From NCBI RefSeq assembly GCF_005116445.1, contig NZ_SWBQ01000001.1:434001-498000 (forward strand): DNA of 64,000 nt. The letters run 5' to 3'. The notes beneath the pieces are model-generated. The model made no database searches and was not told the DNA's origin. It was given only the letters and a program-made list of their open reading frames with translations. The position numbers and the translations under genes are program-made. This document shows, one piece after another, positions 7,157 to 24,434 of the stretch. Each line of letters opens with the position of its first letter. Within the stretch, counting starts at the first letter, position 1. The stretch is from Pedobacter frigoris. Its GTDB lineage: Bacteria > Bacteroidota > Bacteroidia > Sphingobacteriales > Sphingobacteriaceae.

Positions 7157-7168
7157 ATATGAATAAAC

Positions 7169-8444: not shown

Positions 8445-8498
8445 ACCTTTTCCCTGGTCTTTAATCATATTTAAACACCAGGGAAAAGGTTGTTTTTT
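8445..8498 (+). terminator. Terminator of glgAC, overlapping the 3' end of the convergent kinase gene
   Basis: A perfect 14-bp stem is formed by 8445-8458 (accttttccctggt) and 8477-8490 (accagggaaaaggt) with an 18-nt loop, followed by TGTTTTTT. The right arm lies inside the last codons of the minus-strand histidine kinase, so the coding sequence for its C terminus doubles as terminator sequence. Confidence 0.8.
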
Positions 8499-9816
8499 CC
8501 AACGGAAGGGACGTGACCTCCAGGCTTCCATGGTGCATTTTCATGATGTTCCGTGTGATGGTTAACCCAATTCCGGAACCATTTTTTCTGGTCGTAAAGA
8601 AAGGCACAAATATCTTATCCATTAATTCCTGTGCTACGCCTCTGCCATTGTCGTGCACATCCAGGTACAGTTTGTTATGTTCAAGCCTGTAGCCAATTTC
8701 TATCACAGGATTATCAACCCCTTCCAAAGCATATATGCTGTTTGTAACCAAATTGATCAATGCCTGTTCTATCAGTTTAAGGTCGATCATGGTACTGATT
8801 TTTGAAGAAGTTTGCGCTACCTTAAGCAGGATGTTTCTTCCTGATGCAAATGGCAGCATGAGCACCTTGATGTGCTGTAAGATTTCACCGATGGTATGGT
8901 GCTTCAGCTCCGGCGTAGGCAGTTCCGCAATCAAGCGGTAGTCTTTTACAAAATCCAGCAACCCTTCAGACCTTCTTTTTATGGTTTGGATGGCCGGTTT
9001 TAAATCATCCAGTTCGTCCTCATTCAATTCTTTTTTGTGAATGATCATGCTGTTGACGGTGTCGGACAGCGAACTGATGGGCGTAATCGAATTCAGTATT
9101 TCGTGAGATATAACCCCAATGAGTCTGTTCCATGCTTCAGATTCCTTTTGCTCTATCTCATCTTTTATATTCTGGAAGGAGATGATGGTATAGTCTGTAT
9201 GGTAGAGGTTTAGTGGTATCACCTCAGTAGAAAGCTGAATGAGCTTATCCTGTATCCTGAGTTCCATAAAACGTTTTCCCCCTCTTCCAATTGCTGCTAT
9301 TTCTTTGGCAAATTGGGGGATGTGCTGCGTCAGGCGGTGCCAGTATTTATAGGCTGGGATTGCAAGCAGATTGGTCGCCGACTGGTTGAAAAATACAATC
9401 TCAGATTGCTCCTCCGAATTATTGTTTTTTATGACAATAACGCCCACAGGTACCTGTTCAAGTATGGTCTTGATCAGCTGGAACATAGAGTCCTTTTCCA
9501 GCTGCATATCCCGGTGGATCTGAATGATTTCATTAAATGATTCGTATAATTCCGGGAAGCTGCCTTTGGTCGCTTTGTTTTTGAAATTTAAAGTATTGTC
9601 CCTTGTTTTTACAGCCAGTATAAAACGCTTGATGTCTTCCCTGATCTGATTGATGTAGCTATATAAACTAATCAGACAACCGATCAGTACAATACTTGTC
9701 CCTATAATGGTAAACCAAAGCTGGGTTTTGCTGATGAGGTAAAATAGCAGCAGCGCAAGTGCGTTGATGACAATAAGCCTGGTCAGCAGCCGGAAGGTGA
9801 ATCTTGAATAAAACAT
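8461..9816 (-). CDS. NtrB-like membrane sensor histidine kinase
   Basis: Sensor kinase of 451 residues with two N-terminal membrane helices (about 11-28 and 33-53) and almost no periplasmic loop, a PAS-like region (about 110-215), an H box SHEILNSITP with phospho-accepting H238, and a complete ATPase domain (NLVTNSIYAL, DNGRGV, GSGIGLTI). Its ATG overlaps the stop of the NtrC-type regulator gene (ATGA, sharing base 9816), so the two form one two-component system. The very short periplasmic loop suggests it senses a membrane or cytoplasmic cue. Confidence 0.9.
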   Translation of the reverse strand: MFYSRFTFRLLTRLIVINALALLLFYLISKTQLWFTIIGTSIVLIGCLISLYSYINQIREDIKRFILAVKTRDNTLNFKNKATKGSFPELYESFNEIIQIHRDMQLEKDSMFQLIKTILEQVPVGVIVIKNNNSEEQSEIVFFNQSATNLLAIPAYKYWHRLTQHIPQFAKEIAAIGRGGKRFMELRIQDKLIQLSTEVIPLNLYHTDYTIISFQNIKDEIEQKESEAWNRLIGVISHEILNSITPISSLSDTVNSMIIHKKELNEDELDDLKPAIQTIKRRSEGLLDFVKDYRLIAELPTPELKHHTIGEILQHIKVLMLPFASGRNILLKVAQTSSKISTMIDLKLIEQALINLVTNSIYALEGVDNPVIEIGYRLEHNKLYLDVHDNGRGVAQELMDKIFVPFFTTRKNGSGIGLTITRNIMKMHHGSLEVTSLPLEKTTFSLVFKYD

Positions 9817-11189
9817 CAGAGGTTGAATTTTTCTATGCGCCTGTACAATGCCGCACGGGTTAAACCAAGGTCATTTGCGGCTCGTGATATGTTGCCCTTA
9901 TGTTTGTCTATCGCTTTTTGCACCATTAGCTTTTCCATCTCCTCCAGACCCATGTCCGTTTGTACTACCTGGTTTGTCCCCCCGAATTTCTGAGGACTCA
10001 ACTGCAGGTCGCTGGCACTGATCTTCAAACCATCAGACATGATAACGGCACGTTCTATGACATGCTGTAGTTCACGGACATTGCCGGGCCATTGGTAATT
10101 TAGCAGCATGTGTTCGGCCTTATGGTCGAGGCTCAGATTGCTTTTATGATATTTTGAACTGAAAGTATTCAGGAAATGACTGGCCAGCAACAGGATGTCA
10201 TCACCACGCTCTGCAAGACCGGGTAAAAACAACTCTACAGTATTGATCCTGAACAATAAATCCTGGCGGAAAGTTCCTTTAGCCACCATCTCATTTAATG
10301 GCATATTGGTAGCTGTGATGAGGCGCACATTGATCTTTCGTTCTTTGCTCTCGCCCAGGCGGTTAACCGTTCTGTTCTGGATCACACTCAGTAATTTTGC
10401 CTGCAGCGGCAGTGATAAGTTTCCGATCTCGTCCAGGAAAATGGTACCTCCTTCGGCCATTTCAAACCTTCCGGGCTTATCATCCTTTGCATCGGTAAAT
10501 GCACCCTTTGCATAACCAAAGAGTTCACTTTCAAATAGGTTTTCGTTTAGAGCGCCCAGGTCCACATGCATGAAGATCTGGTTTTTCCGCTGCGATAATT
10601 GGTGCAGTTCATAGGCAAATACCTGTTTTCCTGTCCCGTTTTCTCCCAGTATGAGTACATTAGCGTCGGTAGGGGCTACTTTAATTAAGGTATTTTGCAG
10701 TTGTTTGATCGGTTCAGAATGTCCGATGATATGTTCAAATTTCCTGTTGATGTCTTTTTGTAAGGAAGAGTGGATCTTTTCAAGTTTTTTTACTTTTTTG
10801 TTAGACTGGCGTAGCTTCGAGGCTGCCGAGAGGGTGGCAAAGAGCTTCTCATTCTCCCAGGGTTTTAATATGAAATCTGTAGCCCCTTTTTTTATGGCCT
10901 GTACAGCGAGCTCTACGTTTCCATAGGCCGTCATCAGGATCACCACATAATCTTTATCTATCGATAAAATATGCTCCAGCCAATATAAGCCTTCACGGCC
11001 ATCACTTACACCCTTCTGGTAATTCATATCCAGCAAAATGATGTCGATTTCATTTCTGCTCAACAAGACGTTGATTTCTTTGGGTGATTTACAGGTGATC
11101 ACCTGACTGAAATGCTGCTTCAAAAACAGCTTTGCACTCAGCAGAATATCATCGTCGTCATCAATTACTAAAACGTTGGCTTCTATCAT
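9816..11189 (-). CDS. Sigma-54-dependent NtrC-family response regulator
   Basis: Three domains in order: receiver (phosphorylation at D54), sigma-54-interacting AAA+ ATPase with Walker A GENGTGKQ (182-189), and a C-terminal Fis-type helix-turn-helix (NISRAANDLGLTRAALYRR). The sigma-54 contact loop reads GAFTDA (229-234) rather than the textbook GAFTGA. I place the start at the ATG at 11189 because the receiver fold begins at once (IEANVLVIDDD); an in-frame ATG 21 bases upstream adds seven residues. It is co-transcribed with the sensor kinase and divergent from a transporter cluster that has a sigma-54 promoter, which is its probable target. Confidence 0.93.
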   Translation of the reverse strand: MIEANVLVIDDDDDILLSAKLFLKQHFSQVITCKSPKEINVLLSRNEIDIILLDMNYQKGVSDGREGLYWLEHILSIDKDYVVILMTAYGNVELAVQAIKKGATDFILKPWENEKLFATLSAASKLRQSNKKVKKLEKIHSSLQKDINRKFEHIIGHSEPIKQLQNTLIKVAPTDANVLILGENGTGKQVFAYELHQLSQRKNQIFMHVDLGALNENLFESELFGYAKGAFTDAKDDKPGRFEMAEGGTIFLDEIGNLSLPLQAKLLSVIQNRTVNRLGESKERKINVRLITATNMPLNEMVAKGTFRQDLLFRINTVELFLPGLAERGDDILLLASHFLNTFSSKYHKSNLSLDHKAEHMLLNYQWPGNVRELQHVIERAVIMSDGLKISASDLQLSPQKFGGTNQVVQTDMGLEEMEKLMVQKAIDKHKGNISRAANDLGLTRAALYRRIEKFNL

Positions 11190-11221: not shown

Positions 11222-11260
11222 GTGTTCGATGATGTACAGGAACTGTCCGCTTATGAACAC
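11222..11260. promoter_or_regulatory. Possible enhancer site of the NtrC-type regulator
   Basis: Inverted arms gtgttc (11222-11227) and gaacac (11255-11260) flank a small palindrome acag-gaa-ctgt (11236-11246). The site lies about 60-100 bases upstream of the sigma-54 promoter, where activator sites of this family normally sit. This is inference from symmetry and position only. Confidence 0.3.
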
Positions 11261-11320: not shown

Positions 11321-11337
11321 TTGGCATAACCTTGGCT
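11321..11337 (+). promoter_or_regulatory. Sigma-54 (RpoN) promoter of the export cluster
   Basis: TTGGCATAACCTTGGCT matches the -24/-12 consensus TGGCAC-N5-TTGC in its key positions: GG (11323-11324) and GC (11335-11336) are separated by exactly 10 bases. Transcription would start near 11348, about 20 bases before the first ATG. A divergent sigma-54 activator gene next door strengthens the call. Confidence 0.7.
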
Positions 11338-11367
11338 CAGCGCATCGTATAAATGCAATAAAGTTCG

Positions 11368-12612
11368 ATGGACAAGATTATAGAGAAAAAGAGATTTAGT
11401 AAAAAGAAGCTGCTGACACTGGGGGCAATATTGGCTTTTGTAGGCCTGGTAGCTTATGGCTATAGTCTATCCCTGAACAAAATTTATAAAGCTGATGCAG
11501 ATAAATTAACTGTGAATAAGGTAATCTATGGGGATTTTGAGGATGTAGTACTGATCAATGGCAGTGTGGTTCCACTGACTTCTGTGATCGTGAGTTCGCC
11601 CGAAGGCGGTACAGTGGCTGAGATATTTACGGAGAATGGAGCGACCATAGAGAAAGGGACACCATTGCTCAGAATTACCAACCCAAATGCATTGTCCAGT
11701 TATACCTCCAGCGAAACCAGCATTACGGAACAGATTAACCAACTGAGAAAGCTCCGCCTGGACCTGGAACAAAATCAAAGGGTCATGAGTCAGGACATGA
11801 TGGAAATTGAGAACAGCCTGCGCACGGCGACCAGGAAGTACAGGATCGACAGTACGCTGTATTCAAAGAAAGTAATTACCCAGCAGGAGTTTAATGTCTC
11901 CAGTCAGGATTATGAATATTATCAGGGGCGTAAAAAGATATTAAAAGAGGCAGTAAGACAGGAAAACCAAAGCCGTGTCATGCAGTTACAGCAGATAGAT
12001 TTTTCAATTGGCAGAATGAATGAGAGTCTGGAGACCATCAGGCAAAATATTGAGAATATGACCATTAAAGCACCTGTGTCAGGTAAACTGTCTTCCTATG
12101 ATCCGGTAATAGGTAAGTCATACGGAGGAAATGAAATGCTGGGTAAAATTGACGTATTGCAGGGATACAAACTGCAGGCCAGCGTGGATGAATATTATGT
12201 AAACAGAGTGAAGGAAGGGCAATCAGCCACCTGTGAATTTGACGGTAAAACTTATTCCCTTATTGTACGAAAAGTGATCCCGGAGATTACCTCAGGACAG
12301 TTTCAGGTAGAGCTGATCTTCAACGGAAAAGCACCTGATGAACTTAGAAGGGGACTTTCATTACAATTAAAGCTAACTTTATCAGACAACAGTAAGTCGT
12401 TGTTGCTAGCACAAGGCCAATTTTTTCAGAGTACCGGAGGTTCATGGGCGTTTGTAGTGAAGCATGGTAAAGCAGCAAAGAGAAATATAAAGATCGGACG
12501 TAAAAACTATCAGTATTATGAAGTACTGGAAGGGTTACAAAAGAATGAGGAGGTCATCACTTCATCCTACGATCAGTTTAATCAATATGACATCATAGAA
12601 CTTAGCAAATAA
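11368..12612 (+). CDS. Periplasmic adaptor (HlyD/MacA-like membrane fusion protein)
   Basis: Links an inner-membrane ABC transporter to the periplasm or an outer-membrane channel. There is one N-terminal membrane helix (about 15-34), a lipoyl-like half (SPEGGTVAEIFTENGATIEKG), a long alpha-helical hairpin (about 110-235), the second lipoyl half (TIKAPVSGKLSSYDP) and a C-terminal beta-barrel. At 414 residues it has the normal length. It is the first gene after the sigma-54 promoter and is followed after 9 bases by an ABC ATPase, so it probably serves the permeases downstream. Confidence 0.88.
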   Translation: MDKIIEKKRFSKKKLLTLGAILAFVGLVAYGYSLSLNKIYKADADKLTVNKVIYGDFEDVVLINGSVVPLTSVIVSSPEGGTVAEIFTENGATIEKGTPLLRITNPNALSSYTSSETSITEQINQLRKLRLDLEQNQRVMSQDMMEIENSLRTATRKYRIDSTLYSKKVITQQEFNVSSQDYEYYQGRKKILKEAVRQENQSRVMQLQQIDFSIGRMNESLETIRQNIENMTIKAPVSGKLSSYDPVIGKSYGGNEMLGKIDVLQGYKLQASVDEYYVNRVKEGQSATCEFDGKTYSLIVRKVIPEITSGQFQVELIFNGKAPDELRRGLSLQLKLTLSDNSKSLLLAQGQFFQSTGGSWAFVVKHGKAAKRNIKIGRKNYQYYEVLEGLQKNEEVITSSYDQFNQYDIIELSK

Positions 12613-12621
12613 AATATAACC

Positions 12622-13320
12622 ATGATCAGAATAGAAAAGCTGGAAAAAATATATAAGACAGAGGAGATCGAAACCACGGCATTAAACGATATCAATCTCC
12701 ACGTAAAAGAAGGGGAGTTTGTTTCCATCATGGGCCCCTCCGGCTGTGGCAAGTCAACGCTCCTGAATGTGATGGGATTGCTGGATAAGCCTGAAAAAGG
12801 AAGCTATCATTTCATGGATACCGAACTTCTGGGTTTGAACGATAGGGAGCGGGCGAATTTCAGAAAAAGAAATATGGGCTTTGTCTTTCAAAACTTCAAC
12901 CTGATTGATGAACTGACCGTATTTGAAAATATTGAACTGCCTCTCATTTATAATAAAATAGCCACATCGGAGCGTAAAAGACTGGTCAACGAGATCATTG
13001 AAAGAATGAACATTGTAAACCGTAGCGGCCATTTCCCACAACAACTCTCTGGAGGACAGCAGCAGCGTGTTGCTGTTGCCAGAGCTTTGGTCACCAAACC
13101 CAAACTCGTACTGGCGGATGAGCCTACAGGCAACCTGGATAGTTCACATGGTAATGAAGTAATGGAATTGCTTTGTGAATTAAACGAGGCGGGAACGACT
13201 ATTGTGATGGTAACCCACTCTTCGCATGATGCCAGCTTCTCTAACCGGATCATTAATCTGAAAGATGGCCATGTGATCTCCGAGAAAATGAATAAGGGAA
13301 GAAATGAAGAACTGATCTAA
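12622..13320 (+). CDS. ABC transporter ATP-binding protein (MacB/LolD type)
   Basis: A 232-residue ATPase with all motifs: Walker A GPSGCGKST (38-46), Q-loop FVFQNFNL, signature LSGGQQQR, Walker B/D-loop LVLADEPTGNLDS and the switch histidine VTHSS. The closest functional class is the MacB/LolD/FtsE family, which powers FtsX-type permeases by mechanotransmission instead of moving substrate through the membrane. It lies 10 bases upstream of three such permeases. Confidence 0.93.
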   Translation: MIRIEKLEKIYKTEEIETTALNDINLHVKEGEFVSIMGPSGCGKSTLLNVMGLLDKPEKGSYHFMDTELLGLNDRERANFRKRNMGFVFQNFNLIDELTVFENIELPLIYNKIATSERKRLVNEIIERMNIVNRSGHFPQQLSGGQQQRVAVARALVTKPKLVLADEPTGNLDSSHGNEVMELLCELNEAGTTIVMVTHSSHDASFSNRIINLKDGHVISEKMNKGRNEELI

Positions 13321-13330
13321 ATCCAATATC

Positions 13331-15724
13331 ATGTTTAGAATTAACCTCAAAATTGCATTCAGAAATATCTGGAAAAATAGGCTTACCGCGTCGATTAAAT
13401 TATTTGGTCTCATTGCAGGACTGGCGAGTGTGGTATTACTGGTAGCCTATGTGTTGTTTGAATTGTCTTACGACAGGCACAACCTGAATGCTGATCGCAT
13501 TTACAGGTTGCACGTTGTGCAGACTGACGGTGAGAATGAAAGTATTCATATGCCTTCAGGGATGGTTGAAATGATGAAACAGGAAATCCCCGAAGTGGAA
13601 GAAGGAACCTATTTGAGTATTTATGAAACGCCTATACAGGTTGACAGGAATATGTTTAAAGTAAAGATCCTAAGGACTACAGCATCTTTTTTTGACCTGT
13701 TTACGGTTCCCCTAAAAGAGGGGGCTGATCGTAATACGGTTTTAAAAGAACCTAAGGAAGCCCTCGTTTCTGCTGCCTTTGCCAAACAGGCATTTCCCGG
13801 ACAATCTGCCATAGGTAAGACCATTTCATTAAATCTAAACAGCACTCCATACCTCATCAGCGGTATCATTGGAGACATTCCTAAAGCATCGCATTTTCAT
13901 GGAGACATATTGGTGAAATCCAACCTCAAGCAGGTAGTGAACTGGCGAGGGTATACCTCAGCTCCCCAATACATCCTATTAAAAAAGGGAACATCCCCCG
14001 CAACAGTATTGGCAAAAATGAAGAGCTTGTACAAGAAATACCAGTTTCCAGAAAAGATAGCGCTAAAGCTGATGCCGCTTACTGATATTCATTTGCATTC
14101 CCATACCTCTGGTGAACTGGAGCCTAATAGTGACATTAAATATATTTATATTTTCTCGATTGTGGCGTCTCTCATCTTATTGATAGCTGTGGTGAACTTC
14201 ATCAACCTTACCGTTGCGGCATCTTTAAAGAGAAGTAAAGAAATAGGTGTTAAGAAAGTGCTTGGTGCATCTATGCAGCAATTAAAGGTTCAGTTTCTGA
14301 GCGAAAGCTACATCTATTTCATAGCGGCTACTTTTGTGGTATTTCTAATTATAATGGATCTGATACCCTTGTTAGGTAACAGACTTGGTATCAACATCAC
14401 ATTTTCAGAGGTGTTTAATCTGAAGATGATCGGCATTTCGCTGACCATCATTGTACTTTCAGGTTTCATTGCGGCTTTTTATCCGGCTATGGTGCTGTCC
14501 AGAATGATGCCTGCTGATACACTGAAAGGCTATACAGGACATATTCCAGGCAAAGGAGGATTCAAGAAATTCCTGGTTGTATTTCAGTTTGCCATCAGTG
14601 CATTGCTCATGGTATGCACCATGGTTATCTATAGTCAGTTGAAATACATCAGCAATAAGAATCTTGGTTTCGATAAAGATCAGGTATTGGTTACTTCCTA
14701 TAATATGCTCGACAACAGGTTTACCGGATTTAAAGAAGCACTGCTGAAGGAAAAAGGAGTTAAGTCATTGAGCATATCTACATTTAATCCTGGCGTTTCC
14801 TACGGAGGAACGTCCTCCTGGACAAACGACGGCGATACTACCAAATATGAGATGGAAATGGTGTACTGCGACCTTGATTTTATGAAAACGCTGGATATTA
14901 AGGTGTTGAAGGGTAGGTCTTTTTCTGAAGCCACACCTGCTGAATTAAAGGCTTTCAATACAGAAGGGCAGGGCCTGACTGAAAAACAACAGCGGGAGCT
15001 TGAAATGCGAAATCCTATATTGCTGAATGAAGCAGCCGCCAAAAGCCTGAATATAAAAAACGTCGACACCTTGTTGCTGGCAGGAGGCCTTCAGGGGAAG
15101 GTTATTGGCGTGGTGACTGATTTCAATGGGATGTCGCTACACAATAAAGTGAAGCCGGTTGCGCTTTATTTGCAGCCGAAAACTACGTCAGGATATACCT
15201 ATGTTAAAATGGAGACTGATGACCTGCCGGCCACCCGTAAAACCATTGAAGCCCTATGGAAAAAGCATTTTCCTGATGTGGTAACCGAATTTCAGTTTCT
15301 GGATCAATATCTGGAGAAACTCTATGTTTCAGAGATGCGCCTGGGCTCAATATTTATCGTTTTTGCCGGCATGGCCATATTCTTATGCTGTATTGGCTTG
15401 TTCGGAATAGTGTATTATGAACTCGAGCAAAAAACCAAAGAGATTGCCATCCGTAAGGTGCTGGGTGCTTCTTTAAATGATCTGCTGACGCTCATGAATA
15501 AGAACTTTGTGATCATGGTGCTCATCGCCAATGTGATCATATGGCCGATCGCCTATTTACTAATCAATAAATGGCTCAGTACCTTTTATTACCGGATTTC
15601 ATTATCGTACTGGCCTTTTGTCTGGGCAATGCTCATTTGCCTGGTACTTACCATTCTTACGGTTTCTCTGAAAGCATTAAGCACAATCAAAAAATCACCT
15701 GTTGATACTTTAAAATACGAATAA
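13331..15724 (+). CDS. FtsX/MacB-like ABC permease, paralogue 1
   Basis: A 797-residue permease made of two FtsX-type halves. It opens with the family start MFRINLKIAFRNIWKN and a membrane helix, followed by a large MacB-like periplasmic domain, three helices from about 275 to 400, a new N-terminal-like segment (FKKFLVVFQFAISALLM), a second periplasmic domain and three last helices. It ends in VDTLKYE, a tail shared by all four paralogues. The receptor domains diverge much more than the membrane parts, suggesting different substrates or partners. Confidence 0.9.
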   Translation: MFRINLKIAFRNIWKNRLTASIKLFGLIAGLASVVLLVAYVLFELSYDRHNLNADRIYRLHVVQTDGENESIHMPSGMVEMMKQEIPEVEEGTYLSIYETPIQVDRNMFKVKILRTTASFFDLFTVPLKEGADRNTVLKEPKEALVSAAFAKQAFPGQSAIGKTISLNLNSTPYLISGIIGDIPKASHFHGDILVKSNLKQVVNWRGYTSAPQYILLKKGTSPATVLAKMKSLYKKYQFPEKIALKLMPLTDIHLHSHTSGELEPNSDIKYIYIFSIVASLILLIAVVNFINLTVAASLKRSKEIGVKKVLGASMQQLKVQFLSESYIYFIAATFVVFLIIMDLIPLLGNRLGINITFSEVFNLKMIGISLTIIVLSGFIAAFYPAMVLSRMMPADTLKGYTGHIPGKGGFKKFLVVFQFAISALLMVCTMVIYSQLKYISNKNLGFDKDQVLVTSYNMLDNRFTGFKEALLKEKGVKSLSISTFNPGVSYGGTSSWTNDGDTTKYEMEMVYCDLDFMKTLDIKVLKGRSFSEATPAELKAFNTEGQGLTEKQQRELEMRNPILLNEAAAKSLNIKNVDTLLLAGGLQGKVIGVVTDFNGMSLHNKVKPVALYLQPKTTSGYTYVKMETDDLPATRKTIEALWKKHFPDVVTEFQFLDQYLEKLYVSEMRLGSIFIVFAGMAIFLCCIGLFGIVYYELEQKTKEIAIRKVLGASLNDLLTLMNKNFVIMVLIANVIIWPIAYLLINKWLSTFYYRISLSYWPFVWAMLICLVLTILTVSLKALSTIKKSPVDTLKYE

Positions 15725-15732
15725 GGAGCCCT

Positions 15733-18108
15733 ATGTTTAGAATGAACCTGAAAATCGCATTGCGCAACCTTTGGAAAAATAAGGTATATACTGCCATTAA
15801 TATCGGTGGACTGTCTATTGCATTAGCGGCATTTATCATAGTTGTACTTTATGTCAACTATGAAACCAGCTATGATAAGAACCTACCAAATTATGACCGG
15901 ATTTACCTGGTGGGCCGCAGTATGCCTGATTTTAAAACAGATTATACACCCGCGCCATTAGCGAAGGCAATCAGGCAGAATTTTCCGGAAGTGGAACTGG
16001 CGGGACTGACCAAAAACATGGGATTTGAAATGCCGGTAAGTTCAGATCATGGGAAAATATTTTCAAGTAATGCGCTGCAAGTAGAATCTGAAGTGGCAAA
16101 AATGTTCGATATCGATCCCCGGGATGGCCTTCCGGCTAATGATGCTGGGTTAAAAGCGTATCTGCCCCGACCTTTATACAAACAGCTTTTTCCCAAAGAA
16201 AGCATGAAGCCCCCACAAATGGTGGCATTAGGTCCCAGTAATGGAGCACAGGCCGAGAAGGTTTCAGGCACTATAGATAGAGATGATGAACATTCTAATC
16301 TGAAGTTTGACCTCCTGGCCCTGGGCAATGACATTAGTTTTGGGGATCAGGATTATGGGGCCAATAATTTCAAAACCTTTATACAGGTAAAAAAGGGTAC
16401 AGATGTAAAAGCCCTGCAGGAAAAAATAGACCGCTTGTATAAAAAGGAAGTCGTCAAAGCCGGGGTGTCGCCGACAGACAGGAGAATTGCTGGGAGGTCA
16501 GTTATATTTCTTGACCCTCTTAAAAACCTGCACCTCAGGCCAGCCGCCGGTAGCGATGCAAATTATAAAGTGGTGATGGCCTTATTTGGATTGGGCATAT
16601 TGGTCATGGTGATTGCCTGTATTAATTTTACCAATCTGACCATTGCGCAAGCCACAAAAAGGGCAAAAGAGGTAGGGGTCAAAAAGGTACTTGGTGCCTA
16701 CCGCTTCAACCTTACTTTCCAATTTCTTGCAGAAATCTTCATGCAGTGTGTGCTAGCACTCATAATGGGGTTGATCGTGGCTGAAATACTGCTCCCCGTT
16801 TTTAATAATTTGTTCAGCACACCCTTGTCGCTATGGCGAAGCAATACCACCCTGTATTGGCAATTGCCACTGCTGTTGTTGCTGATTACCATTATTTCGG
16901 GAATCTATCCGGCCCTGGTACTTTCCGGATTTAAGCCGGCTGCGGTACTGAAAGGCAATCTGCAGACCAGTTATAAAACGTTGTGGCTGAGAAATGCACT
17001 GCTGGCCGGACAATTTGGGATTGCAATCATCTTCATCACCGGATTGTTTATCGTGAACAGTCAGTTGAAATACATGCGTACGGAGGATACAGGTTTCAAA
17101 CCTGAACAGGTGATCAGCATAAAAAATATGGTGCTGTATTCGCAGCCCTGGAGCTTCAGGGATGTAAGGGAGAAGATCTCCAAAATACCGGGGGTTAATT
17201 ATGTCACTGTCGCTTCTGATATTCCAGATGGCTCTAAAGCGGGGACAATGAACTACAAGATTGACGGAAAGGAGGCTTCCAGCGATTTTCTCTATGTAGA
17301 TTTTGATTATTTTGAAACACTCGGCATTCGTCTGAAAGAAGGACGTCTTTTCTCCTGGAAGTTCAATGCTGATACCGCCAATTCAGCTATTTTAAATGAA
17401 AGTGCTGTGGCTAGATATGGTGTTAAAGATCCGGTAGGGAAGACCATCAGAGGCTGTGATATCGATTATAAGATTGTAGGTGTGGTAAAGGACTTTAAAT
17501 CACAAGGGTTTCAGACAGCGGTAGAGCCAACAGTCTATACTATCAAAAATCCTTGTGGTAATTTCAAGACCAAAATCATGATCAATGTAGATGAACAAAG
17601 GATGGCACTTGTCCTCACTACTTTAAAATCGCAATGGTCGTCGATCAATAAATTGGATGGAGATGATTTCAGATATGATTTTCTGGATGAACTCTATGGC
17701 AGGTTATTCAAAAAGCAAGAGCAGTTGCAGGCCGTATTCTTCTTCGCGGCCGTACTTACTATTTTTATAGCCGTATTGGGATTGTTTGCTTTCTCTGCTT
17801 TTACCACAAACAGCAGGATCAAGGAAATCTCTATCCGCAAAGTATTAGGGGCTACAGATTTTCAGGTGCTGAAATTATTGAATACCTATTTCATCTGGAT
17901 CATACTTGTAGCCAATCTGGTAGCCTGGCCGCTCACTTATATGCTGGCGAAAAAGTGGTTGCAGACATTCGCTTACCGCATTGAGATGCCAATATTGCCC
18001 TTTCTTGTTGCCGCAGTCGTTACGTCCGTACTAACCATTATTATTGTAAGTATACAGGCGCAAAAGGCCGTACGGAGGAATCCGGCAGAAGTATTGAAAT
18101 ACGAATAA
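15733..18108 (+). CDS. FtsX/MacB-like ABC permease, paralogue 2
   Basis: A 791-residue double-FtsX permease that starts MFRMNLKIALRNLWKN and ends AEVLKYE. The coupling segments AKEVGVKKVLGA (first half) and IKEISIRKVLGA (second half), typical of cytoplasmic loops that touch the ATPase, are both intact. It begins 8 bases after paralogue 1 with the same N-terminal pattern, so it looks like a tandem duplication followed by divergence of the periplasmic parts. Confidence 0.9.
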   Translation: MFRMNLKIALRNLWKNKVYTAINIGGLSIALAAFIIVVLYVNYETSYDKNLPNYDRIYLVGRSMPDFKTDYTPAPLAKAIRQNFPEVELAGLTKNMGFEMPVSSDHGKIFSSNALQVESEVAKMFDIDPRDGLPANDAGLKAYLPRPLYKQLFPKESMKPPQMVALGPSNGAQAEKVSGTIDRDDEHSNLKFDLLALGNDISFGDQDYGANNFKTFIQVKKGTDVKALQEKIDRLYKKEVVKAGVSPTDRRIAGRSVIFLDPLKNLHLRPAAGSDANYKVVMALFGLGILVMVIACINFTNLTIAQATKRAKEVGVKKVLGAYRFNLTFQFLAEIFMQCVLALIMGLIVAEILLPVFNNLFSTPLSLWRSNTTLYWQLPLLLLLITIISGIYPALVLSGFKPAAVLKGNLQTSYKTLWLRNALLAGQFGIAIIFITGLFIVNSQLKYMRTEDTGFKPEQVISIKNMVLYSQPWSFRDVREKISKIPGVNYVTVASDIPDGSKAGTMNYKIDGKEASSDFLYVDFDYFETLGIRLKEGRLFSWKFNADTANSAILNESAVARYGVKDPVGKTIRGCDIDYKIVGVVKDFKSQGFQTAVEPTVYTIKNPCGNFKTKIMINVDEQRMALVLTTLKSQWSSINKLDGDDFRYDFLDELYGRLFKKQEQLQAVFFFAAVLTIFIAVLGLFAFSAFTTNSRIKEISIRKVLGATDFQVLKLLNTYFIWIILVANLVAWPLTYMLAKKWLQTFAYRIEMPILPFLVAAVVTSVLTIIIVSIQAQKAVRRNPAEVLKYE

Positions 18109-18125
18109 ATTTAAATAATAGGGCC

Positions 18126-20486
18126 ATGTTCAGATTAAACTTAAAAATAGCACTAAGGAATCTTTGGAAAAACAAAGCTTACACCCTGATCAATATGGGT
18201 GGTTTAGCTATTGGCCTTGCAAGTTGCATGGTGTTGCTTATGTACGTTGCCTATGAATGGAGTTTTGATAAGCAGTTTAAGAACAATCATAAAACTTATG
18301 TGGTTTACAATCTGGCCAATGCAAGCGGAAGGATATTTAGCTGGGCATGGACGCCGGGAGATATGGCGCCCGATGTAGAACAAAGCATTCCGGGTGTTGC
18401 ATACGCTTCACATTCCTCATATCCTGAAGACCGATTGATCAGTTACGGACAAAGGAATTTTAAAAAGTCAGGGGTTTTTGCAGATCCGTCATTTCTGAAA
18501 ATACTTGATTATAAATTTGTGAAGGGGAATCCAGATAAAGTATTAAAGGGAGTCAATACGATTATTTTAACGGAGACAATGGCAAGGAATCTCTTTGGAG
18601 ACGAAGATCCGATCAACAAAACTGTCAAGTTAGACAACGCCGAAGTACTGAAAGTAGAAGCGATAATTGAAGACATTCCAAAAAACAATAGTATTCGTTT
18701 TGACTACCTCATGCCCTGGGCCTTAAATGTAAAAGTAAATCCATGGATGAAAACCAATGGTTACGAAGGCAATTTTTGCTTAACACTTATTCAGTTGCAG
18801 GATAATAACTATTTTGAACGTGCCAATGCTCAGATCAAAGGTATCTATAAACAACATAAAAAAGACTCTAATTCCGAAGCGATCATGCATCCTTTATCGA
18901 AATGGCATTTGTACAGTAATTTCGAAAATGGGAAATCTGTAGGGGGGAGGATCGATCAGATCAAGATCTTTTTTATTCTGGCATTTTGTATCCTGCTGAT
19001 TGCCTGTGTTAATTTCATGAATCTCTCTACCGCCAGATCAGAGAAGAGGGGTAAGGAAGTTGGGGTTCGTAAAACCATTGGCTCTTCAAGAAAGTCCCTT
19101 ATTGGGCAGTTTCTGCTAGAATCTTTATTGCTGGCATTAATGGGGATGTTAGTCGCATTTGTATTGCTTGAAATAAGTCTGCCATATTTTGATGAACTGT
19201 TAGACGTCAATCTATCTATCAATTACAGCGACTGGAGATTTTGGTCTGCACTTACTGGATTGACGCTAATTACCGGTTTTATCGCCGGAAGCTATCCAGC
19301 ATTTTATCTGTCCTCTTTTGAACCGGTTAAAGTGTTAAAGGGGGCTACAATAGTTGGGAACTCGTCACTCTCTGTACGAAGAGTTCTAGTAGTATTTCAG
19401 TTTGTATTTGCCACTTGCCTGATTATATGCACAACAGTTATCTATCAACAGTTGAGCTACATTAAAAACAAACCTATTGGTTACCAGAGAGCAGGATTAA
19501 TTGAAATGCCAATACAGGGGAATTTCAAAGCACCTGAGAAATTGAATACGTTAAAAGATCTGTTAATAAAATCAGGAGCTGTCAGCAGCGTAACTTCCTT
19601 TAGCAGAGGTTTAAATGAAGACGGAAACAATACTTTTAGTGTAGAATGGCCTGGTAAAAACTTGAAAGATGAAACACTGTTTAATTTTAGATTTGCGGGT
19701 CTCGACTTTGTTAAAACCATAGGGACGGACATGATCTCAGGCAGAGAATTTCTGAGTTCCTCTGACTCTTCAAATGCAATAATCAATGAGTCAGCTGCTA
19801 AAATTATGGGATTAAAAAATCCGGTAGGCACAATGATTAACTCACAGGGAACCCCATTGAACATCATCGGGGTGATGAGAGATTTTGTAATTGAATCGCC
19901 GTATTATAGGGCGAGACCTATGATTGTATATCATCATATGAGGGAAGTAAATGTCATTATAGCCAGATTAAACCCGGCTATGAATGTAAGTAACGCTATC
20001 GGTAAAATTGACGAGATTATTAAAACACTGAATCCTGAATATCCGGTAGGCAGAAAGTTTGTGAACGATGGTTTTGAACAAAAATTTCAAAACGAAAAAT
20101 TACTTAGGACGTTGTCTAACTGGTTTGGTGGCTTCGCCGTTTTTATCTCCTGTTTGGGTTTATTAGGATTGGCACTGTTTATGGCCGAGCAGCGTAAAAA
20201 AGAAATCAGCATCCGCAAAGTGCTGGGAGCTAGCACGACTAACATTTTAACCTTACTGAATAGAGACTTTATCAGGCTGGTAGTCATTGCAAACTTAATA
20301 GCATTTCCGCTTGCGTACATTATTGTCAACAAATGGCTTTCTGCATATGAATACAGAATAAATATCTCTATTCTCCCTTTTGTAATTGCGGCTGTACTTT
20401 CGCTGCTTATCGCCATACTTACAGTAAGTGTGCAATCAGTAAAGGTGGCGAAATCCAATCCTATCGATGCACTGAAATACGAATAG
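18126..20486 (+). CDS. FtsX/MacB-like ABC permease, paralogue 3
   Basis: A 786-residue member of the same tandem family (start MFRLNLKIALRNLWKN, end IDALKYE). Both coupling segments are present: GKEVGVRKTIGSS and KKEISIRKVLGA; in the first the usual KVLGA is KTIGS. It is 17 bases after paralogue 2 and 10 bases before the second ATPase gene, in one operon. Confidence 0.9.
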   Translation: MFRLNLKIALRNLWKNKAYTLINMGGLAIGLASCMVLLMYVAYEWSFDKQFKNNHKTYVVYNLANASGRIFSWAWTPGDMAPDVEQSIPGVAYASHSSYPEDRLISYGQRNFKKSGVFADPSFLKILDYKFVKGNPDKVLKGVNTIILTETMARNLFGDEDPINKTVKLDNAEVLKVEAIIEDIPKNNSIRFDYLMPWALNVKVNPWMKTNGYEGNFCLTLIQLQDNNYFERANAQIKGIYKQHKKDSNSEAIMHPLSKWHLYSNFENGKSVGGRIDQIKIFFILAFCILLIACVNFMNLSTARSEKRGKEVGVRKTIGSSRKSLIGQFLLESLLLALMGMLVAFVLLEISLPYFDELLDVNLSINYSDWRFWSALTGLTLITGFIAGSYPAFYLSSFEPVKVLKGATIVGNSSLSVRRVLVVFQFVFATCLIICTTVIYQQLSYIKNKPIGYQRAGLIEMPIQGNFKAPEKLNTLKDLLIKSGAVSSVTSFSRGLNEDGNNTFSVEWPGKNLKDETLFNFRFAGLDFVKTIGTDMISGREFLSSSDSSNAIINESAAKIMGLKNPVGTMINSQGTPLNIIGVMRDFVIESPYYRARPMIVYHHMREVNVIIARLNPAMNVSNAIGKIDEIIKTLNPEYPVGRKFVNDGFEQKFQNEKLLRTLSNWFGGFAVFISCLGLLGLALFMAEQRKKEISIRKVLGASTTNILTLLNRDFIRLVVIANLIAFPLAYIIVNKWLSAYEYRINISILPFVIAAVLSLLIAILTVSVQSVKVAKSNPIDALKYE

Positions 20487-20496
20487 CATAATAAAT

Positions 20497-21180
20497 ATGA
20501 TGATCGAATTAAAAAACATAGAGAAATACTACGCCAATAAAGGTGTAAAGAGTTATATCCTGAGGCATATAACCACGAGCATCAAACAAGGGGAATTCGT
20601 GTCGATAATGGGCCCTTCAGGTGCCGGAAAATCGACGCTGTTAAATATCCTGGGGATGCTGGAAGAGCCTACTTATGGAGATTATGAATTTATGGGCGAA
20701 AATGTGCTGTCTCTGAACGAGCGCAAGCGCATCGATCTGTATCGCAGTCATATTGGCTTTGTATTTCAGGCCTACCATCTGATAGATGAAATGACAGTAG
20801 CGGAAAATATTGAAGCACCATTGCTGTACAAAAAGATAGGAAGCGCGGAAAGAAAAAGCCGTGTGGCAGATATACTCGATCGCTTCAGCATGGTGGCCAA
20901 AAGAGATCTTTTTCCAAATCAGCTATCGGGCGGGCAACAACAACTGGTAGGGATAGCAAGAGCATTGGTCGCCCAGCCATCTATTATACTCGCCGATGAA
21001 CCTACAGGAAATCTACAGTCGGTACAAGCCATACAAATTATGGAGTTGTTTAAACGGCTCAATGAAGAGGAGGGGATGACGATCATTCAGGTGACCCATT
21101 CTGAAATTAATGCAGGTTATGGCAGTCGCATCCTGCACTTGCTCGATGGGATTATAAAAGAAGATGTAAACTTAAAATAG
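20497..21180 (+). CDS. Second ABC ATP-binding protein (MacB/LolD type), altered D-loop
   Basis: A 227-residue ATPase with Walker A GPSGAGKST (39-47), signature LSGGQQQ (143-149), Walker B ending ADEPT, and switch histidine H201. Two positions differ from the first ATPase: the D-loop reads GNLQS (Q174) where the family has GNLDS, and the residue after the signature is Leu instead of Arg. Such changes are known in degenerate ABC sites, so it may work as a partner of the first ATPase or hydrolyse ATP weakly. It lies between permeases 3 and 4. The start could be either of two adjacent ATG codons. Confidence 0.9.
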   Translation: MMIELKNIEKYYANKGVKSYILRHITTSIKQGEFVSIMGPSGAGKSTLLNILGMLEEPTYGDYEFMGENVLSLNERKRIDLYRSHIGFVFQAYHLIDEMTVAENIEAPLLYKKIGSAERKSRVADILDRFSMVAKRDLFPNQLSGGQQQLVGIARALVAQPSIILADEPTGNLQSVQAIQIMELFKRLNEEEGMTIIQVTHSEINAGYGSRILHLLDGIIKEDVNLK

Positions 21181-21189
21181 TCTCTCGAG

Positions 21190-23601
21190 ATGTTTAAACT
21201 CAACCTGAAAATTGCTTTAAGGAACCTGTATAAAAATAAGGCATATACAGCCATTAACATTGCCGGACTCGCATTGGGATTGGCCGGATTTATTTTTATC
21301 CTGCTCTATATCAATTATGAGAAAAGTTACGATACCTGGGACAAAGAACTGGATAAAGTTTACCAGGTGCAGGAGCTGGATTTGTTTTCTTTAAAAGAAG
21401 GCAAGGCTGAGTGGCGGGGAGAATCTGACGGACGGCTAAGGGAAATGATAAAAGCCGGTTTGCCTAACGTAGTTGCGGTTACTCATGTCTATGAAGCGGA
21501 ACAGGATGAAGCCATTGTTATAGATAATAAAGGAGCGTTTTTTATAAATGATGTGCAAAGGGCCGACAGCATGTTTTTTTCTGTCTTTCCCTATAAGTTC
21601 ATTCATGGAAACCCTGCTGGGGCATTAAGAAATCTAAATGATATGGTTATTAGTGAGGATTTTGCAAAAAAATACTTTGGTGATGTTAATCCAGTAGGGA
21701 AGGTAGTGAAACTTACATCTCAGGCCTGGGTAAACCAAACGACGCATTATACGATTACCGGTGTAATTGCAAAACCAGAAACCCCAAGTATTTTTGATTT
21801 TAATGTTTTGGTTCAAGCTCCCAATTTGAAATTCACAGACCGGGCACTTTATTTCAGACCTAACTACGTGAAGTTTAGCGAGAAGCAAAATGAGCAGAAT
21901 ATTAATCAGTCGCTTCAAAAAATATACGAGCCTTTCCGGGCAGCAATGCTTAAAAAGTGGAAATGGTCGCCCTCGGAGTATCTGAAAAATGGAAATAAAC
22001 CCGCGGTACGATTAAAACCATTTTATAGCGTGCATCAAGAACCCTTGCAACAGGAAGACTGGCTTAAACAATTAAAACCCATCATACTGTTATCCTCTCT
22101 TTTGTTACTGATCTCTATCATCAATTTCATGAATATGTTTACTGCCCAGGCTGTTTCCCGGGCAAAAGAAGTCGGAATCAGGAAAGTAACCGGTGCAAGC
22201 AGGGCATCATTGATCAAGCAATTTCTTTTAGAAACCGCTCTTCAATGTTTTTGCGCATTGATACTGGGTGTGATCCTGCTGGAGTTGTTTCTCCCATATC
22301 TTAACGAACAGTTTTCGCTTGCACTGTCAATAGCCGACAGTTACAGTATTGGATTGGTCTCTTTACAACTTATAGGTCTCGTAACGCTAATTACACTACT
22401 TTCTGGAATTTACCCTGCGATATTCCTTTCTTCCTATGATCCTCATAATGTATTGAAGGGCAATTTTGCACAGGGAAAGAAAGGCTCTAAATTAAGAGTT
22501 GCCCTGGTCGGAATGCAATTTGTGATCGCTGTAGGCTTTTTTATTGGCATCCTAATCATTTCCAGTCAGATTAAATACATGGAATCAAGAGATCCTGGTT
22601 TTGATCCGACAGGAATAATATATGTCAATGAGCCAATGAATAAAGTGCTTTCTGATCGCATCAGAAATATAGAAGGAGTGAAATATGTTGCCGTCAATAA
22701 TGGGAATGTACGTAGGCATCCGAATATTACTGCAGATTATAAGTATAACAACGAAGTGAAGGAACTGAATACTGTATTTGTGAACCTTGAAGGATTGCAG
22801 GCTGTCGGCGCAAAATTGATTAACGGAAGGTTCTTTGATAAATTACATAAACAAGATACATCAAGAACAGTAATTATAAACGAAAGCCTTGAAAAGCTAT
22901 ATGGAGGAGATATGCTCAACAAATACATCACTTATAATAATGATAGTGTAAGGGTGCAAGTGGTGGGCATTATTAAAGATATACAGGTTACCGGATTCGA
23001 TAAAGTATCGCCACCGACGATCTACACTGCATCTGAATTCAATGCTACTGATTACACCAACGACGGCTTTGCCAACCTGGTTACCTACGACACTAAAAAA
23101 GAAAAACATGTACTTGCAGAATTCAATAAAATATGGAGACAAGCATCACCTGACTATCCTTTGAGCTTTAGTTTTCTCGAACATGATTTTAAGAAGTTGT
23201 TTGTGAGTCACGAACGTTTCAAGCAAATGGTAAAACTCTTTTCTTTGCTATCCATTTCTCTTTCCATGATCGGACTGTTTTCGCTGGCTGCATTCATGAC
23301 CCGTCAGCGGACTAAAGAAATCGCCATCAGGAAAGTATTGGGAGCAGATGATAAGGACATATTCTTTCTGCTGAACAAGGGCTATTTGTGGCTGATGCTT
23401 GGTGCTAATGTTGTAGCCTGTCCATTGATATACATTGCGGTGCAGCATTGGCTGGCGGGCTTTGCCTACCGGATTGAAATGCCTGTGTTTCCATTTTTAA
23501 TTGCATTTATCGTTTCCATTCTTGTCACGGCCCTTACTGTAAGTGTTCAGGTAAAGAATGCAGTCAAAGCTAATCCTGTGGATGCATTAAAATACGAGTA
23601 A
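21190..23601 (+). CDS. FtsX/MacB-like ABC permease, paralogue 4
   Basis: An 803-residue double-FtsX permease (start MFKLNLKIALRNLYKN, end VDALKYE) directly after the second ATPase gene, with which it may form a unit. Coupling segments AKEVGIRKVTGA and TKEIAIRKVLGA are intact. The first periplasmic domain is large and unlike those of paralogues 1-3. It is the last transporter gene; no outer-membrane channel (TolC-like) gene follows. Confidence 0.9.
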   Translation: MFKLNLKIALRNLYKNKAYTAINIAGLALGLAGFIFILLYINYEKSYDTWDKELDKVYQVQELDLFSLKEGKAEWRGESDGRLREMIKAGLPNVVAVTHVYEAEQDEAIVIDNKGAFFINDVQRADSMFFSVFPYKFIHGNPAGALRNLNDMVISEDFAKKYFGDVNPVGKVVKLTSQAWVNQTTHYTITGVIAKPETPSIFDFNVLVQAPNLKFTDRALYFRPNYVKFSEKQNEQNINQSLQKIYEPFRAAMLKKWKWSPSEYLKNGNKPAVRLKPFYSVHQEPLQQEDWLKQLKPIILLSSLLLLISIINFMNMFTAQAVSRAKEVGIRKVTGASRASLIKQFLLETALQCFCALILGVILLELFLPYLNEQFSLALSIADSYSIGLVSLQLIGLVTLITLLSGIYPAIFLSSYDPHNVLKGNFAQGKKGSKLRVALVGMQFVIAVGFFIGILIISSQIKYMESRDPGFDPTGIIYVNEPMNKVLSDRIRNIEGVKYVAVNNGNVRRHPNITADYKYNNEVKELNTVFVNLEGLQAVGAKLINGRFFDKLHKQDTSRTVIINESLEKLYGGDMLNKYITYNNDSVRVQVVGIIKDIQVTGFDKVSPPTIYTASEFNATDYTNDGFANLVTYDTKKEKHVLAEFNKIWRQASPDYPLSFSFLEHDFKKLFVSHERFKQMVKLFSLLSISLSMIGLFSLAAFMTRQRTKEIAIRKVLGADDKDIFFLLNKGYLWLMLGANVVACPLIYIAVQHWLAGFAYRIEMPVFPFLIAFIVSILVTALTVSVQVKNAVKANPVDALKYE

Positions 23602-23624
23602 ATGTGATTTGTGGATACACTGCG

Positions 23625-23632
23625 TATCTTTG
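23625..23632 (+). promoter_or_regulatory. -7 box TATCTTTG before the BtuF-like gene
   Basis: TATCTTTG fits the Bacteroidota TAnnTTTG box but ends only four bases before the ATG at 23637. If it is used, the transcript would be leaderless or start inside the gene; otherwise the gene is read through from the transporter operon. Confidence 0.35.
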
Positions 23633-23636
23633 TGTA

Positions 23637-24434
23637 ATGGAACGCAGTTTTACGGATCAGCTGGGTAGGGTAGTTACCCTTAATTATCCCCCGAAAAGGA
23701 TCATTTCTATTGTTCCCTCGCAAACAGAATTGTTGTTTGATCTGGGGCTGGATACTGAGGTAATTGGTATTACTAAGTTTTGTATCCATCCCATAGAAAA
23801 ATTTGCCTCAACAGTAAAAGTAGGAGGTACCAAGAAGCTGAACATAGAAATGATCAGGGCGCTGCAGCCTGATTTGATCATTGGCAATAAAGAGGAGAAT
23901 GAAAAAGATCAGGTAGAAGAGCTTATGGCTGAGTTCCCGGTATGGATGAGTGATATTTACACGCTGGAAGATGCTAAAAATACCATCGCTCAGATAGGGG
24001 AACTGGTGGACAAGCAGCCAGAAGCGGCTTATTTAAATCATTTGATCCATGCTGGTTTTACTGATCTGCAGACCCTGGCTCTCCAGAATGGAATAGATAA
24101 AAAAGTAGCCTATTTAATTTGGCGCAATCCTTATATGCTGGCAGGTAAGGACACTTTTATAGATCATATACTTGTGCTGAACGGACTTAGTAATGTCGTA
24201 AATGAAAAAAGATATCCTCAGGTTAAACTTGACGAACTCGCTTTGCTGGAGCCTGATCTGATCTTCTTGTCCTCTGAACCTTATCCTTTTAAAGAAAAAC
24301 ATCTTGAAGAAATACGTAATGTAATCCCCCGGACCAAAGTTATGCTGGTAGATGGGGAGATGTTTTCCTGGTATGGCAGCAGTCTGGTTAAGGCTGTTCA
24401 ATACCTTTTTCAGTTACAAAACGAGATCAGGTAA
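23637..24434 (+). CDS. Helical-backbone metal receptor (BtuF/TroA-like)
   Basis: A 265-residue member of the periplasmic-binding-protein family for cobalamin or iron chelates. Typical segments are PPKRIISIVPSQTELLFDLG at the N terminus and ALQPDLIIGNKEEN. I choose the ATG at 23637; an upstream in-frame ATG at 23604 would add residues with no family likeness. No signal peptide or lipoprotein Cys is visible, so it would stay in the cytoplasm, unusual for a solute receptor but seen in stand-alone family members. No permease or ATPase for metal uptake is adjacent. Substrate unknown. Confidence 0.8.
   Translation: MERSFTDQLGRVVTLNYPPKRIISIVPSQTELLFDLGLDTEVIGITKFCIHPIEKFASTVKVGGTKKLNIEMIRALQPDLIIGNKEENEKDQVEELMAEFPVWMSDIYTLEDAKNTIAQIGELVDKQPEAAYLNHLIHAGFTDLQTLALQNGIDKKVAYLIWRNPYMLAGKDTFIDHILVLNGLSNVVNEKRYPQVKLDELALLEPDLIFLSSEPYPFKEKHLEEIRNVIPRTKVMLVDGEMFSWYGSSLVKAVQYLFQLQNEIR

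Follow-up and report, generated by a model that had tools for sequence, protein, structure and literature searches.

We analysed a 64,000-nt stretch of the Pedobacter frigoris genome (NZ_SWBQ01000001.1, positions 434,001-498,000, forward strand); this whole stretch is called the window, and all coordinates are window positions. Between 11368 and 23601 it carries seven genes in a single direction, which the open reading frame (ORF) list and Pfam identified as encoding an adaptor, ATPase 1, permeases A, B and C, ATPase 2 and permease D, with intergenic gaps of 9, 10, 8, 17, 10 and 9 bases. A preliminary description of this DNA had proposed an adaptor, two ATPases and four permeases of about 800 residues, all in one direction with gaps of 8-17 bases, and this layout was borne out. 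We consider, with a probability of about 0.6, that the genes encode a stress-inducible, TolC-type tripartite type VII ABC export module with alternative permeases. The features of the locus are as follows.

8461-9816, minus strand: sensor histidine kinase with two N-terminal membrane helices (about residues 11-52), a weak PAS_8 match and HATPase
9816-11189, minus strand: NtrC-type response regulator with REC, a sigma-54 AAA+ domain having GAFTDA for GAFTGA, and a Fis helix-turn-helix (HTH)
11223-11238, no strand: upstream activating sequence (UAS) 1, the distal enhancer dyad TGTTCGATGATGTACA, from the conserved block and a pattern search
11244-11259, no strand: UAS 2, the proximal enhancer dyad TGTCCGCTTATGAACA, 21 bp from UAS 1
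11321-11337, plus strand: -24/-12 sigma-54 promoter TTGGCATaacctTGGCT, with an expected 5' end near 11348
11368-12612, plus strand: periplasmic adaptor (membrane fusion protein) with one membrane helix, a long alpha-hairpin (106-229) and a MacA/AcrA-like fold
12622-13320, plus strand: ATPase 1, LolD/MacB/DarD-like, with the canonical D-loop GNLDS
13331-15724, plus strand: double-FtsX permease A, 797 aa, for which the fetched Pedobacter loci supplied one close relative (58%)
15733-18108, plus strand: double-FtsX permease B, 791 aa, whose family (55% identity) occurs in 26 loci, the window counted
18126-20486, plus strand: double-FtsX permease C, 786 aa, modelled; family (55% identity) in 38 loci, the window counted
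20497-21180, plus strand: ATPase 2, with the D-loop aspartate replaced (GNLQS)
21190-23601, plus strand: double-FtsX permease D, 803 aa, whose nearest fetched relatives are about 40% identical
23604-24434, plus strand: Peripla_BP_2 (BtuF-like) gene, without a signal peptide by eye, of uncertain operon membership

Pfam placed HlyD and biotin-lipoyl matches in the adaptor, ABC_tran in both ATPases and, above cut-off, FtsX and MacB_PCD in all four permeases. The regulator showed the order Response_reg-Sigma54_activat-HTH_8, and HATPase was found in the kinase. Each permease contains two FtsX stretches. The four are 27-35% identical in pairs, and A, B and D align end to end with C; the common termini that had been noticed earlier were visible in the alignment as an MF.xNLKIAxRNxxKN start and an LKYE end. 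When the N- and C-terminal halves of permease C were aligned with each other, the score was 40.5, against a shuffled mean of -64 (standard deviation 17, maximum -22). In the structural model of permease C (59 sequences; predicted local distance difference test (pLDDT) 84.8, predicted template modelling score (pTM) 0.78), eight long helices lie in the membrane, the periplasmic part consists of two MacB-like domains, and a pair of short helices occupies the positions expected of coupling helices. Its whole chain matched E. coli YbbP (Foldseek E 2.8e-21; Z 23.8, 671 residues aligned), with a root-mean-square deviation of 9.5 that reflects domain shifts. BceB was also matched over the whole chain, less completely than YbbP, and MacB, LolC/E and HrtB matched one half. 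Together with the Pfam assignments, these fold matches place the system among the type VII (MacB/FtsX) ABC transporters.

The passages available from PMC12646458 give YbbAP-TesA a 2:1:1 stoichiometry, with a single YbbP chain mimicking the MacB dimer, and a passage of PMC5985334 states that fused permeases always have a separate ATPase. Because permease C is duplicated, has eight helices in its model and matches YbbP as a whole chain, and given the YbbAP stoichiometry, one permease chain with two ATPase subunits is the expected functional unit. By analogy, we infer that the four permeases would be alternative substrate modules and not partners of one another. Identity among them is 18-26% in the periplasmic domains and 27-69% in the membrane parts, a pattern in keeping with specificity being set on the periplasmic side and with membrane parts that must fit common ATPases. 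A recent tandem duplication of the window permeases was rejected, since they are only 27-35% identical, which makes the array old. The closest permease pair per locus was 32-84% identical (49 loci with at least two comparable permeases), so some younger duplicates exist elsewhere.

The two ATPases differ in their catalytic motifs. The ATPase 1 D-loop GNLDS was present in 42/42 Pedobacter copies and in at least 61/62 other relatives. ATPase 2 carries GNLQS in all 12 Pedobacter copies and NLN or NLH in the nine others, and its signature LSGGQQQLV replaces LSGGQQQRV (12/12 Pedobacter copies). Since the D-loop aspartate of ATPase 2 is replaced and its signature changed, the sequences suggest an asymmetric pair, and ATPase 1 and ATPase 2 may act as a heterodimer.

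The AlphaFold2 model of the adaptor (pLDDT 83.5; pTM 0.43, so that domain placement is uncertain) had MacA and AcrA among its top Protein Data Bank matches. This MacA/AcrA-like model and the Biotin_lipoyl and HlyD matches identify the protein as an adaptor of tripartite exporters. Its 45 nearest named relatives, among the matches listed, were Pedobacter or Sphingobacteriales records with 75-86% identity. The absence of a TolC gene from the cluster, which had led to the suggestion that the outer-membrane partner is elsewhere or not needed, was confirmed. As to that partner, 9/9 tested ORFs adjoining the cluster in other genera belonged to the TolC family (OEP), and the best match to them in the P. 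frigoris genome was an unlinked gene on contig 12 (E 3.4e-89; next 9.8e-19). This TolC gene directly precedes another adaptor gene and, as the partner of the cluster, would have to be shared between systems.

Next, the intergenic stretch in front of the adaptor was examined. The regulator most likely starts at ATG 11189, as read from the sequence, rather than at TTG 11210 as set by the ORF caller, which makes this stretch 178 bp long. In TTGGCATaacctTGGCT (11321-11337), GG at 11323-11324 and GC at 11335-11336 form GG-N10-GC, and, when scored with an approximate weight matrix, the site outdid 200/200 shuffled versions of this stretch. An alignment of 14 genus members revealed two conserved blocks, namely the -24/-12 region and paired 16-bp dyads, TGTYCG-N4-YGNACA, 21 bp apart. 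In counting loci, those whose adaptors were identical over the last 350 residues were treated as one, and near-identical ones were kept separate; control windows came out of this same set of loci, and the true site may be among them. The dyad pair (at most 4 mismatches of 22) was present in 49/50 distinct Pedobacter-type loci and in 15/1000 control windows, always with a 5-bp spacer (49/49). A [CT]TGGCA[CT]-N4-6-TnGG site was found in 41/50 of these loci (control windows 16/1000), and TGGCA[CT] lay within 150 nt of the adaptor ATG in 49/50, the -24 part being nearly invariant. In all 40 Pedobacter-type loci that have both elements, the dyad start stood 99-101 nt from TGG; measured from the end of the second dyad, the distance was 62-64 nt in Pedobacter and about 63 nt at the window site. 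The exact dyad-pair pattern occurred in 43/60 genus genomes, once in the window genome, and its reversed form in 0/60.

Outside Pedobacter, TGGCA[CT] lay within 150 bp of the adaptor ATG in 60/76 loci (control windows 133/1520), and an upstream dyad was present in 36/61 loci with the element within 170 bp (shuffled control 5/1520). The dyad ended 51-54 nt before TGG in 28/36, the Pedobacter distance being about one helical turn longer. A single RpoN DNA-binding domain was matched in the genome. The GG-N10-GC promoter that had been read at this position thus held up in the site itself, the shuffle test and the conserved block, and the control of the cluster by sigma-54 and the regulator, also proposed earlier, is supported at the sequence level by conserved dyads and a -24/-12-like site at a fixed distance. 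From its position and co-conservation, the regulator is the candidate dyad-binding activator. In adaptor upstream regions outside Pedobacter (e.g. L072, L077 and L069), the -24 TGGCA[CT] was kept and the -12 GC mostly missing, often with a TTGTATA-like stretch, possibly a variant -12 element.

The regulator is of the sigma-54 enhancer-binding type (REC, AAA+, Fis HTH) with the loop GAFTDA, and a passage of PMC4641369 lists GAFTDA among the variants expected to keep activity. Among 108 distinct regulators of the fetched loci, the loop read AFTDA in 100, AYTDA in 3, AFTGA in 4 and otherwise in 1. The best NCBIfam model for the kinase was AtoS, below cut-off. A divergent NtrC/NtrB-type pair had been described here; the regulator is indeed NtrC-type, but the kinase is a two-helix membrane kinase and not a soluble NtrB. 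A loop of few residues separates its two membrane helices, and it has no periplasmic domain. By hydropathy, two hydrophobic 17-mers stood 0-15 residues apart in 100/100 kinases, with a gap of at most 12 residues in 97, leaving no space for a periplasmic domain. This layout of two helices, a minimal loop and no sensor domain is that of Bce-type, intramembrane-sensing kinases. Passages of PMC10314905 propose that the kinase of Bce modules senses the FtsX-type transporter as it cycles, and that induction of the module's own operon follows transporter activity. By analogy, the kinase could read the membrane state or working transporters, a weaker suggestion than those on the operon itself.

We then assessed how widely the module is conserved. 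The adaptor was found in 79/151 sampled genomes of the family and in 71/247 genomes (42/121 genera) of the phylum sample. A scan of named genomes confirmed at least 447 adaptor relatives, of which the best 80 were kept; besides Bacteroidota, these 80 include Ignavibacteria, Zixibacteria, Calditrichaceae, KSB1 and Latescibacterota records. From the family sample, sixty of the 80 adaptor places outside the own genome were fetched as loci of about 20 kb, which often cut the permease array, and the loci of the family and named-genome samples overlap in source genomes. Kinase and regulator lay upstream of the adaptor in 45/60 family loci (13/13 in Pedobacter, 32/47 elsewhere), and both were kept in 24/35 named loci outside the Pedobacter type, including Ignavibacteria, Zixibacteria and Calditrichaceae; at L197 and L215, no adaptor ORF was called. 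Arrays held 2-4 permeases in the 12 Pedobacter loci with a visible end (L024 and L155 are one genome, and L157 was dropped as a spurious ORF ended the run) and at least five in some other loci. At 55% identity, 164 distinct Pedobacter permeases fell into 13 families, with that of C in 38 loci, B in 26, A in 2 and D in 1. The pattern looks like a core-plus-accessory permease repertoire around a constant adaptor and ATPase 1. The earlier idea of an exporter family on a shared adaptor is favoured in this form, with variable permease sets around one adaptor and ATPase and co-regulated orphan permeases.

To follow the regulatory sites across the genus, twenty stretches around dyad pairs were fetched. 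The exporter cluster itself stood at three of them (L116, L117 and L122). In ten, the dyad pair was followed by TGGCA[CT] 99-101 nt on and next by a gene encoding a protein of 189-202 residues (loci including L113, L124, L129 and L132). Five of these proteins have a signal-peptide-like start, the coding DNA of the other five begins in the same way, and the two tested were DUF2807 by Pfam. A passage of PMC11237479 unifies DUF2807 with Lia-type domains as Toastrack, and this protein is a possible envelope-stress partner of the exporter. A dyad pair also stood beside a double-FtsX permease at L125, L128 and L131 and in the 3-kb loci L085 and L099; neither an adaptor nor an ATPase was recognised in the sequence examined around them. 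At four of these five sites (not L125), TGGCA[CT] followed 87-100 nt after the dyad start and the permease ATG 38-42 nt further. Since the dyad pair and TGGCA[CT] precede them, the same activator probably governs permeases without a nearby ATPase of their own.

Other dyad sites had different surroundings. At L121, L086 and L098, second dyad sites have neighbours without a recognisable link to the exporter, and at L130 a 198-residue ORF lies beside the site. At L115 (9943-9979) and L118 (9933-9969), the pair is beside a polysaccharide-deacetylase-like gene adjoining a TolC-adaptor pair that matches the contig-12 locus of P. frigoris. TGGCA[CT] was not seen in the stretch inspected around the L115 pair; at L118 it points away from the promoter side of the TolC gene, and an erythromycin-esterase family gene lies on the other side. 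Judged by the length of open frames, this cluster holds four of the five double-FtsX permeases in the P. frigoris genome. Its own two DUF2807 proteins, 33-36% identical to the regulated one, were rejected as regulon members, with no second dyad pair at up to 3 mismatches and a 5-bp spacer.

Several observations weigh against an inducible module of this design. Fifteen of the 60 family loci lacked a complete pair beside the adaptor (14 had neither gene, 1 the regulator only), some of them being cut by contig ends. The -12 element is variable: at GG-N10, Pedobacter-type loci had GC in 23/50, GT in 15/50 and other bases in 12/50 (one without TGGCA[CT]). Outside Pedobacter, exact GC at -12 occurred in only 4/76 loci and TA was commonest (15/76), which makes canonical recognition by sigma-54 less certain in those loci. 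The own genome held no second dyad pair at up to 3 mismatches with a 5-bp spacer, and a wider regulon is visible in relatives only. The fifth double-FtsX permease (contig 16, 70747-72582, L081) had neither a dyad pair nor a -24/-12 site according to the patterns applied and was rejected as a member. In the Pedobacter kinases, the stronger conservation expected of the membrane helices was not found: they were less conserved (62-63%) than the N-terminal cap (89%) or the linker and DHp (83%), so the helices are not singled out as a sensor surface. The kinase also has a sub-threshold PAS_8 match at residues 114-165 (20.2 of 21.8 bits), in a region 72% conserved in Pedobacter.

The cluster was compared with known systems of the same kind. 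With E. coli MacAB-TolC it has in common the type VII permease fold, a MacA-like adaptor and, in some relatives, an adjoining TolC-family channel. However, MacB has its ATPase fused to one four-helix permease and dimerises, whereas here the ATPases are separate and each permease consists of two fused halves; the comparison with a MacB of about 650 residues made in the preliminary description is thus misleading, as that length includes the fused ATPase. Several permeases per adaptor and sigma-54-type control further set the cluster apart, and MacB proper was rejected (NCBIfam PRK10535 cut-off 966; permeases 21.9-47.9 bits, ATPases separate). YbbAP-TesA, the best whole-chain structural match, shares the fused double-FtsX permease, two periplasmic domains and a separate ATPase. 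YbbAP is not known to have an adaptor or TolC partner, nor LolCDE a MacA/AcrA-like adaptor. The YbbP family was rejected (cut-off 999; C and D 27-28 bits, A and B not listed), the model of C having eight helices; YbbP has 10 with a linking pair, as passages of PMC12646458 describe. DarBCD has the same set of parts (double-FtsX permease, adaptor, separate ATPase) and gave the best curated models for adaptor and ATPases. In contrast to it, the cluster has four permeases, all scores are far under the cut-offs and no darobactin genes were among the window proteins searched; membership in DarBCD was rejected at 78-137 of 700 bits for DarB, 221.5 of 450 for DarC and 287.8 and 248.2 of 375 for DarD. 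ADOP (TIGR03434), similar in its duplicated architecture, was rejected at 224-274 of 622 bits for the permeases, and the LolD family because the ATPases, though matching well, fell below its cut-off. BceABS of Firmicutes shares an FtsX-type permease beside a kinase without a sensor domain. BceB has ten helices and one extracellular domain, unlike the eight helices and two periplasmic domains in the model of permease C, and BceABS has no adaptor or outer membrane channel. BceR is not known to be NtrC-type.

These comparisons bear on what the permeases do and how they are assembled. The preliminary description had suggested that different permeases may dimerise in combinations and so form a family of exporters made of heterodimers. 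The LolC-LolE heterodimer recorded in a passage of PMC5985334 is in keeping with that idea, as is an operon that joins four permeases whose ends are related, but permease C already contains two MacB-like halves and eight helices, and MacB and LolC/E align with one half of it. Arrays of only two permeases exist, and orphan single permeases bear the same regulatory sites. We therefore abandoned the heterodimers, which the internal duplication of permease C and its whole-chain match to YbbP make very improbable. A dedicated exporter of a self-made peptide, like the darobactin exporter DarBCD, would account for DarC and DarD being the best curated matches of adaptor and ATPases and for DarB appearing among the matches of all four permeases. 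Scores so far below the cut-offs (DarB at most 136.8) argue against it, as do the lack of a precursor or radical-SAM gene among the 20 window proteins searched with Pfam and an adaptor spread over several phyla, unlike a strain-specific biosynthetic cluster, and we regard such an exporter as quite improbable. A machine for lipids or lipoproteins, in the manner of LolCDE or YbbAP-TesA and not an efflux pump, would fit the closeness of the permease C model to YbbP as a whole chain and the good, sub-cut-off LolD matches of the ATPases. Yet a MacA/AcrA-like adaptor, with TolC genes adjoining in some genera, indicates a conduit across the envelope, and this function appears unlikely.

The remaining alternative concerns the sensing step only. 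Its PAS-like region could let the kinase answer a signal from the cytoplasm or from the membrane in general, instead of the transporter. A cytoplasmic signal by this route is possible given the weak PAS_8 match, the conservation of that region and helices that are not unusually conserved. The match is, however, below cut-off, none of the 100 kinases has room for a periplasmic domain, and the kinase family occurs mostly beside FtsX-type permeases, as in Bce modules. We give this alternative appreciable weight, somewhat short of even odds.

In the export module that we favour, the two-component pair, a two-helix kinase and an NtrC-type activator, would switch on the adaptor-ATPase-permease operon through the dyads and the -24/-12 site. 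Each permease of about 800 residues would be a fused pseudo-dimer that alone binds two ATPase subunits, as its fold and relatives suggest, these being either an ATPase 1 homodimer or ATPase 1 with ATPase 2. The permease would dock on the common adaptor and discharge through a TolC encoded elsewhere. Less firmly, load on the pumps may raise pump synthesis; in other Pedobacter genomes, orphan permeases and a secreted Toastrack (DUF2807) protein would be raised along with it. The probable job of the module would be to clear the periplasmic face of the inner membrane of toxic molecules that are amphipathic or peptide-like; the inducible removal of such envelope-damaging molecules would be the likeliest function.

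Two further observations concern the flanks of the cluster. The Peripla_BP_2 gene begins 2 bases after permease D; it was the next gene after the array in 8/12 Pedobacter loci with a visible array end, at a distance of 18-152 bases in the ten loci measured, and it may be part of the operon or a mere neighbour. A terminator-like hairpin with a T tail (24654-24624) lies between it and an opposing DUF892 gene. Beside the kinase (5750-8437), two genes read by sequence as glycogen synthase and ADP-glucose pyrophosphorylase, and the same neighbours occur in many Pedobacter loci.

Sigma-54 promoters have been found enriched before COG0577 permeases in Bacteroidia, gamma-Proteobacteria and Opitutia, which was called first evidence (PMC12316311, 2025). 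The passages available from that paper do not describe an adjacent kinase-regulator pair, dyads or tandem arrays, and the words tandem, adaptor and Pedobacter are missing from its main text. In Flavobacterium psychrophilum, mapped sigma-54 promoters serve chaperone, envelope stress and gliding genes, according to passages of PMC9723704. Searches of the open-licence PubMed Central literature turned up no description of this array with its kinase-regulator pair. Each of the parts belongs to a known kind; no description was found there of a sensor-less kinase and a sigma-54 activator combined with variable fused permeases on one adaptor.

A broader and more tentative proposal, which we hold to be doubtful in its full extent, is that the system is a Gram-negative counterpart of Bce modules. 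A sensor-less kinase would read the workload of swappable fused permeases that share an adaptor, an ATPase and TolC, and a sigma-54 enhancer of fixed geometry would call the whole set, including scattered permeases and a Lia-type Toastrack protein; such a system would be ancient in Bacteroidota and neighbouring phyla. If the favoured explanation is true, one regulator and one conserved DNA motif would mark out an envelope-stress regulon in the Bacteroidota and in related phyla, offering a way into the many genes there for "ABC transporter permeases" of about 800 residues. One could then also ask by experiment whether a single adaptor and ATPase can serve several permeases, and whether sensing through a transporter occurs outside Firmicutes.

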